A stretch of DNA of 64,000 bases, taken from positions 124,306-188,305 of the forward strand of contig NZ_JAJGWT010000004.1 in NCBI RefSeq assembly GCF_021390715.1. The letters are read 5' to 3'. The position numbers and the translations under genes were made by a program. Of the stretch, positions 33,827-34,772 are shown one piece after another. The notes below the pieces were generated by a model. It did no database searches. It saw nothing but the letters and a program-made list of their open reading frames with translations, and was not told where the DNA came from. The DNA comes from Tenacibaculum piscium. GTDB lineage: Bacteria; Bacteroidota; Bacteroidia; Flavobacteriales; Flavobacteriaceae. Each line of letters starts with the position of its first letter. The first letter of the stretch is position 1.

Positions 33827-34038
33827 GTAGGGGCTGACCTATGTGTCCGCCCACGCCTATATATCCGCCCACGCTTATCTGTACGCTCACGCCTATCTGT
33901 ACGCCACCTAATCCGTAAAAATTGACAAACATAAATTGTTGGGCGAACAGGAATTGTTAAGCAAACAGGAATTGTTGGATAAACAAGAATCGCTAGGCGA
34001 ACAGGAATCGTTGGGCGAACACATAGGTTCGCCCCTAC
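33827..34038. repeat. REP-like palindromic element, intergenic copy (212 bp)
   Basis: The ends are imperfect 26-bp inverted repeats starting GTAGGGGC and containing ACCTATGTGT. The left arm holds tandem 18-bp units of the type ACGCCTATCTGTACGCTC; the right arm holds five contiguous 18-bp units (33936-34025) of the type TTGTTGGGCGAACAGGAA. A second copy lies inside the transposase gene at 34359-34551. This copy starts 9 bp after tsaD. It has one extra unit and one extra T relative to the other copy, and its reading frame would be closed by TGA near 33924. Confidence 0.9.
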
Positions 34039-34079
34039 ATTTATGATTTAATCACAATATTTAACCAAAATAAAACAAT

Positions 34080-34772
34080 ATGAAATACAACCCAAAAATT
34101 CATCACCGAAGATCTATTCGATTAAAAGATTATGATTATTCGCAAGCAGGTTTGTATTTTTTAACGATTTGTTGTCAGAAAAAAACGCATTTTTATGGTG
34201 AAATAAATAACGATAAAATGATATTAAATGATGCTGGGAAAATGATTGAAAAATGGTATTTTGAATTGGAAAATAAATTCAAAGACATAAAATGCCATGA
34301 AATGATTATTATGCCAAATCATTTTCATTGTATTGTTGAAAATATGGGGAAATTAACCGTAGGGGCTGACCTATGTGTCCGCCCACACATATCTGTACGC
34401 TCACACCTATCTGCCCGCCACCAATCCGTAAAAATTGACAAACATAAATTGTTGGGCGAACAGGAATTTTTAAGCAAACAGGAATTGTTAGATAAACATA
34501 AATCGCTAGACAAACAGGAATCGTTGGGCGAACACATAGGTTCGCCCCTACATTCGTTGGTGCAATGGTTTAAAACCATGACCACAAATGATTATATTCG
34601 TAATGTAAAATCAAATGATTGGCAACGTTTTGATGAAAAATTATGGCAACGAAATTATTGGGAACACATTATCAGAAATGAAAAATCACATTTAAAAATT
34701 TCAGATTATATTAAAAATAATCCTCAAAATTGGAAAAAAGACAGCTTGAATAAAATTAATGCAAAATTTTAA
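34080..34772 (+). CDS. REP-associated tyrosine transposase (RAYT, Y1/HUH) containing a repeat-encoded insert
   Basis: 230 residues of the Transposase_17 (Y1_Tnp) family: MKYNPKIHHRRSIRLKDYDY start, HUH motif PNHFH (H81, H83) and a C-terminal KLWQRNYWEHIIRN ... YIKNNP region whose tyrosine Y210 (or Y193) should be the nucleophile. Such enzymes nick single-stranded palindromic REP sequences. Residues 94-158 are encoded by a copy of the element that also flanks the gene, yielding five hexapeptide repeats (LLGEQE, FLSKQE, LLDKHK, SLDKQE, SLGEHI; 124-153). The frame remains open through it. The 3' end overlaps holA by 17 bp, tail to tail. Whether the enzyme is active is unknown. Confidence 0.9.
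   Translation: MKYNPKIHHRRSIRLKDYDYSQAGLYFLTICCQKKTHFYGEINNDKMILNDAGKMIEKWYFELENKFKDIKCHEMIIMPNHFHCIVENMGKLTVGADLCVRPHISVRSHLSARHQSVKIDKHKLLGEQEFLSKQELLDKHKSLDKQESLGEHIGSPLHSLVQWFKTMTTNDYIRNVKSNDWQRFDEKLWQRNYWEHIIRNEKSHLKISDYIKNNPQNWKKDSLNKINAKF
34359..34551. repeat. REP-like palindromic element, intragenic copy (193 bp)
   Basis: It has the same ends and arms as the copy at 33827-34038, lacking one 18-bp unit of the left arm and one T at the arm junction. It lies wholly inside the transposase reading frame; five 18-bp units at 34449-34538 are read in frame as six-residue repeats. Confidence 0.9.

Follow-up and report, generated by a model that had tools for sequence, protein, structure and literature searches.

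Within the window, the 64,000-nucleotide stretch of Tenacibaculum piscium DNA analysed here, a gene for a REP-associated tyrosine transposase (RAYT, TnpA_REP) carries in its own reading frame a pair of REP palindromes, the predicted substrate of its enzyme. Relatives of this gene keep the hairpins as DNA and not as protein, and it therefore likely travels with its own target. The explanation that we favour on balance is that the RAYT frame holds a REP pair kept as DNA, enzyme and substrate forming a portable unit that likely seeds the surrounding REPs.

Structure of the locus and of the predicted protein

The gene occupies positions 34080–34772 on the forward strand and encodes 230 aa. Its 3′ end overlaps the convergent gene for the DNA polymerase III delta subunit by 17 bp (34756–34772). 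The original prediction described a 212-bp element upstream of the gene and a 193-bp copy inside it with near-identical ends, and the coordinates of both proved correct to the base. The outer module (33827–34038, forward strand) lies between a tsaD-like gene and the RAYT gene, and the inner one (34359–34551, forward strand) makes up residues 94–158 in frame. Both consist, in the same order, of a left REP, a spacer and an inverted right REP. The left REP, GTAGGGGCTGACCTATGTGTCCGCCC, starts at 33827 in the outer module (33827–33852, forward strand) and at 34359 in the inner one (34359–34384, forward strand), where its GTAG foot is 5′ and the encoded peptide is VGADLCVRP. The right REP is on the reverse strand and ends with a terminal CCCCTAC at 34038 in the outer module (34013–34038) and at 34551 in the inner one (34526–34551), where the GTAG foot of the reverse strand appears as CTAC on the forward strand and the peptide is GEHIGSPLH.

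The end hairpins of the two modules are identical, the aligned core shows 92.5% identity over 186 columns, and the shared stretch reaches from one base before GTAG to three bases past CTAC. The spacer of the outer module contains 18-bp repeats. Alignment bore out the earlier description of the inner module as lacking one such 18-bp unit, near the left end, and a single T. It is this absent T that keeps the inner frame open, again as predicted; read in the frame of the inner copy, the outer copy starts with VGADLCVRP and then meets a TGA stop at 33923–33925 (forward strand).

The identification of the gene as a RAYT is supported by subclass motifs in the ORF (PNHFH, LWQRNY and YIKNNP) and by a predicted HUH-Tyr fold. 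The ORF scored 24.1 bits with PF01797 (cut-off 23) and 55.3 bits, in two stretches, with NF047646 REP_Tyr_transpos (cut-off 80). A six-frame search of the genome with PF01797 did not detect the RAYT gene, as expected since the insert splits the domain. The AlphaFold2 model (80 aligned rows, mean pLDDT 70.7) has a confident core; residues 93–150, between the HUH strand 81–88 and the helix 158–178, have a pLDDT below 50. Fold matches were obtained with solved structures of TnpA_REP and IS200-type transposases, 2xma, 4er8 and 2f4f (E 1.1e-5 to 2.7e-5; TM to target 0.51–0.63; rmsd above 12 with the disordered loop included). The HUH motif is H81-F-H83, and the sequence alignment with 4er8 spans residues 187–217 including the Tyr motif. 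From this alignment and from the enzymology of the family, we take Y193 in LWQRNYWEH to be the catalytic tyrosine. The model places the insert where the original prediction had put it, between the half with the HUH motif and the half with the Tyr motif, and predicts disorder for the loop that it forms.

Conservation of the inner REPs as DNA

A protein search scored 7964 of 7998 candidates as homologs at E 0.001. DNA comparisons were made with 82 genes, namely the best 80 of at least 575 confirmed loci, the window gene and a second RAYT gene of the same genome; the 80 are best-ranked loci retrieved by two peptide patterns and are therefore close relatives. In this set the stretch from HUH to WFKT ranges from 22 to 180 aa (median 56), and spacers grow by tandem repeats. 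The insert is not missing from all homologs, as most of the close ones studied carry it. The inserts of these 82 genes hold GTAGGG in 64 cases and CCCTAC in 67, both feet in 57, either in 74 and neither in 8, one of these eight being the second RAYT gene (L026), which has another REP type. The two motifs occur 70 times each in 15.5 kb of insert versus 5 and 3 times, respectively, in the 35.6 kb of gene remainder, and a loose hairpin scan returned 166 hairpins in inserts and 21 elsewhere.

Codon choice in the feet is strongly biased relative to backgrounds taken from the same genes (column table, n = 78). Within the set built on the best 80 of at least 575 loci, Val of the left foot is encoded by GTA in 63/69 cases (background 19%) and Gly by GGG in 64/69 (25%), and the codons of the right foot are CCC for Pro in 45/47 cases (27%) and CTA for Leu in 43/47 (5%). 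The codon entropy of the foot Gly is 0.33 bit versus 1.85–1.98 bits for three conserved Gly positions beyond the insert. Changes on both sides of a stem numbered 45 (left) and 48 (right); shuffling gave on average 12.4 and 14.6 such changes, and at most 26 and 23. In an 80-row protein alignment, residues H152, G154, S155 and L157, which belong to the translated right REP, do not vary. The right foot is read in phase 0 in 45 genes (GSPL) and in phase 1 in 22 genes (APT). On a core-protein tree, which covers near relatives only and has an unsettled bootstrap with 50 of 79 inner branches open, this phase changes 9 times, at least 4 changes being forced by starred branches; the states are clustered, 18.6–18.8 changes being expected if shuffled. 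This tree count takes kinship into account, while the codon and stem tests ignore it.

The loop of the left inner REP and that of the right one agree better within genes than between them (5.71/7 versus 4.69 shuffled; 0/2000) among 49 non-overlapping pairs, L068, L070 and L111 being left out as single hairpins in which the REPs overlap. In a loop test that included these three inserts, the exact loop triplet is shared within the gene in 14 of 31 cases versus 5.6. The constraint on feet, codons, stems and loops of the inner REPs acts on the DNA and extends over many phyla. We reject a purely neutral passenger in view of the codon constraint and the stem covariation. For annotation, peptides such as VGADLRVCP and GEHIGSPLH should be taken as translated DNA elements, not as protein motifs.

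Conservation of foot, stem and loop on the DNA is also what would be expected of a cis-regulatory site. The main rival to our explanation is, accordingly, that the inner REPs serve self-regulation: as hairpins that work like operators, either in the gene or in the mRNA, they would be bound or nicked to limit the enzyme, the seeding of outer REPs being incidental. The maintenance of inner REPs in genomes where the pattern has no further sites (see below) would suit such a role. Taken alone, however, it leaves the whole-module copies in flanks and the dispersed REPs of the own genome unexplained, and we regard it as unlikely.

Coupling of insert, flanks and dispersed REPs

The coupling of enzyme and repeat, originally noted for a single gene, reaches far beyond the window locus, as seen from feet, codons and stems in relatives and from matches between inserts and flanks. 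Comparisons of inserts with flanks comprised 66 loci, 16 of the 80 having been left out where anchors failed. The insert matches its own 800-bp flanks with at least 60 bits at 12/66 loci versus 2/4290 mismatched pairs, and with at least 35 bits at 28/66 versus 14.0% of mismatched pairs. For the window insert the match to its own flank reaches 267 bits versus at most 46.8 bits with the flanks of the other 65 loci; for this reason and in view of the feet in relatives, we reject a chance duplication unique to the window gene. The own flank was the best of all flanks at 17/66 loci (median rank 25), a weak test, since one REP type is common to many of the genomes. At L060, L065 and L073 the flank match extends beyond the foot into gene-like sequence, and the feet thus do not mark the module boundary at every locus.

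Derivation of flanking REPs from decayed RAYT copies finds no support as a general rule. Five of 81 genes (L045, L047, L051, L059 and L101 (weak)) have coding remnants of at least 30 bits in their own flank, and none of this strength was found in the window flanks. The RAYT at L047 (153–773) has a third match to the REP pattern in its N-terminal region (CVRPHLFG) and thus has REPs at two sites. L166 (31–1270) contains tandem RAYT copies with inserts expanded as NNGQPQ versus DGPCACP, the second copy being split over two frames.

A search of the own genome with the element found the whole module of about 200 bp in two copies and its hairpin ends at 25 sites (up to 3 mismatches) versus 0 for a reversed-pattern control; the hairpin ends are thus not confined to the locus. 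Several of the 25 sites form close inverted pairs. Four REP ends stand in tandem at 121117–121325 of contig C1 (L027), with partial loop and 3′-arm repeats between them. The second RAYT of the genome, on the same contig (241658–242268; L026:658–1269), has a double-foot REP of the GTAGAGACGC type. It carries a REP different from that of the window gene, GTAGAGACGCAATGCATTGCGTCTCTAC, both upstream and in frame after the HUH motif; these two copies are identical, and three genomic places match with up to 3 mismatches. Counting both types, 3 of 28 REP sites lie in an ORF of more than 85 aa, all of them inside the two RAYT genes.

Genomes of 50 of the 80 relatives (the best 80 of at least 575 loci), many of them MAGs, were searched with one general REP pattern, which does not detect other REP types. 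All pattern sites lay in the RAYT frame in 15/50 genomes, at least two sites being present in 6 and one in 9; in these 9, partner REP types went uncounted, as the single in-gene REP fits the one pattern used. No in-gene match was found in 3/50 genomes, and at least 20 extra sites were found in 11/50. Among the sites listed, the loops in G412 are nearly all of the CCC type and those in G422 mostly of the CCT type, as in their respective genes, and G415, G416 and G443 contain several stem and loop types. Given these mixed genomes and the 11 with at least 20 extra sites, dispersed REPs are not always matched to one gene.

Among 397 genomes of the same family, a RAYT homolog at E 1e-20 is present in 12, own genome included, and the REP pattern in three: the own genome (22 sites), G296 (2 sites) and G058 (an off-type pair). 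Both sites of G296, which is 99% complete, lie inside its RAYT. In the two genomes of the same genus, neither the REP pattern nor a RAYT at E 1e-20 was found. The nearest family homolog (L121:1476–2195, on C1 of G296) has no flanking REP and lies directly between genes that resemble type I restriction specificity and restriction genes. Another palindrome, GGGCGAATTGCAATTCGCCC, stands in frame in L126 and L134, in a different protein loop nearer to the Tyr motif, where it encodes GELQFAPT; related palindromes occur upstream in L134. It has one genomic place each in G002 and G297 (99% complete). In G002, this sole palindrome of its type is inside the RAYT frame; in G297, it lies 193 bp past the N-terminal match of an open frame of 220 aa and, from this position, is likely within the RAYT gene. 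This less biased sample of same-family loci gives a mixed picture, with no footed REP in the gene at L123 and palindromes without GTAG feet at L127 and L128 (L125 and L129 not readable).

Several of these observations would also follow if REPs, mobile by themselves, repeatedly landed in or near the RAYT gene, owing to an enzyme that acts near its site of synthesis or to a tolerant loop, a reading close to that of Quentin et al. 2018 (PMC6006769), as far as the accessible part of that paper goes; we doubt it. Improbable to us as well is its corollary that insertion or gene conversion renews the inner copies, which would have no role in the gene. The predicted disorder of the loop, the repeated phase changes of the right REP, the likeness of outer and inner modules at 12/66 loci and the tandem-repeat expansion of spacers are consistent with recurrent landing. 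Against it are the intact inner REPs in the 15/50 genomes where no other pattern site was found and the lack of any REP site in ORFs above 85 aa other than the RAYTs in the own genome (3/28 sites, all RAYT). A neutral one-off duplication, by which an intergenic palindrome was copied by chance, would fit the 92.5% identity of the two window copies but is highly improbable in view of either foot in 74/82 related genes, fixed codons and covarying stems.

Proposed mechanism and relation to known systems

According to the favoured explanation, in which gene and REP pair form one portable unit, the enzyme would recognise the inner GTAG-footed hairpins on single-stranded DNA in the same way as the outer ones. 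Modules could then be swapped between gene and flank, either by cutting with strand transfer or by recombination of one REP with another, and such an exchange may have produced the 212-bp upstream copy. As part of the gene, the substrate would move along even when the gene is transferred by itself, and dispersed REPs in a new genome would descend from the gene. The original suggestion that the gene may serve as the template of outer REPs has indirect support in the genomes whose pattern-matching sites are all gene-borne and in the RAYT coding remnants next to 5/81 genes, the window gene not being among these five. The encoded peptide is presumably tolerated by virtue of a flexible loop after the HUH strand. 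A stronger version, which we put forward tentatively as a possibility, is that of an obligate replicator: selection on DNA would keep the REP pair within codons, the gene would be the progenitor of REP/REPIN families after horizontal transfer, and separate RAYT lineages would each have placed their own REP in a loop encoded by their own gene. The origin of REP families and the match of RAYT and REP after a move between species are two questions that a substrate inside the codons of its enzyme would, if true, answer.

The arrangement, rated in the original prediction as the most unusual structure of the window, has a precedent. In-frame REPs between HuH and Tyr motifs were reported as a feature of TnpA_REP subclass 2.4 by Quentin et al. 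2018 (PMC6006769), and the basic observation was thus already known, the window protein carrying the motifs of this subclass. The accessible part of that paper places all 100 sequences of RAYT group 4 from Bertels et al. in subclass 2.4 and lists the motifs NH[IFV]H, WQ and YIxNNP (Table 1), to which NHFH, LWQ and YIKNNP of the window protein correspond. Further likenesses to its description are an insertion between beta3 and alphaC whose length varies, also present in the window protein, long GTAG-footed REPs that flank the gene and occur in frame, generally between HuH and Y, and Bacteroidetes among the hosts. No defining difference between the window gene and subclass 2.4, as described there, was found. 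In that portion of the paper (PMC6006769) we found no mention of constrained codons, of reading in two phases, of agreement between left and right loops, of a genome with two RAYTs and two REPs, or of genomes with pattern sites in the gene only. Among the openly accessible papers searched, none was found to report codon constraint or two-phase reading.

E. coli TnpA_REP (4er8) and its REPtron share with the window system the HUH-Tyr fold, GTAG-footed REPs and the sequence match at the Tyr motif. According to the accessible parts of the sources, the E. coli enzyme differs in its class, group 2 / subclass 2.2, and in the bulged stems of its REPs (PMC8266576, PMC6006769), in-frame REPs being described as unique to subclass 2.4 (PMC8266576, PMC6006769); it is reported to cut single-stranded REP at CT 5′ or 3′ of the hairpin and to need GTAG (PMC8266576). 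REPINs and BIMEs likewise consist of two inverted REPs around a spacer, and dispersed pairs in the own genome combine the two stem types of the module, CAGACC and CGAACC; the module here differs in its length of about 200 bp, in its 18-bp repeating spacer units and in having one coding copy out of two. Rickettsia palindromic elements, as far as described in the part of PMC3733652 available, are also palindromes in frame within protein genes, but are found in various genes, whereas the host gene here is that of the repeat's own predicted enzyme. The window gene is a further example of the type of RAYT with in-frame REPs already described.
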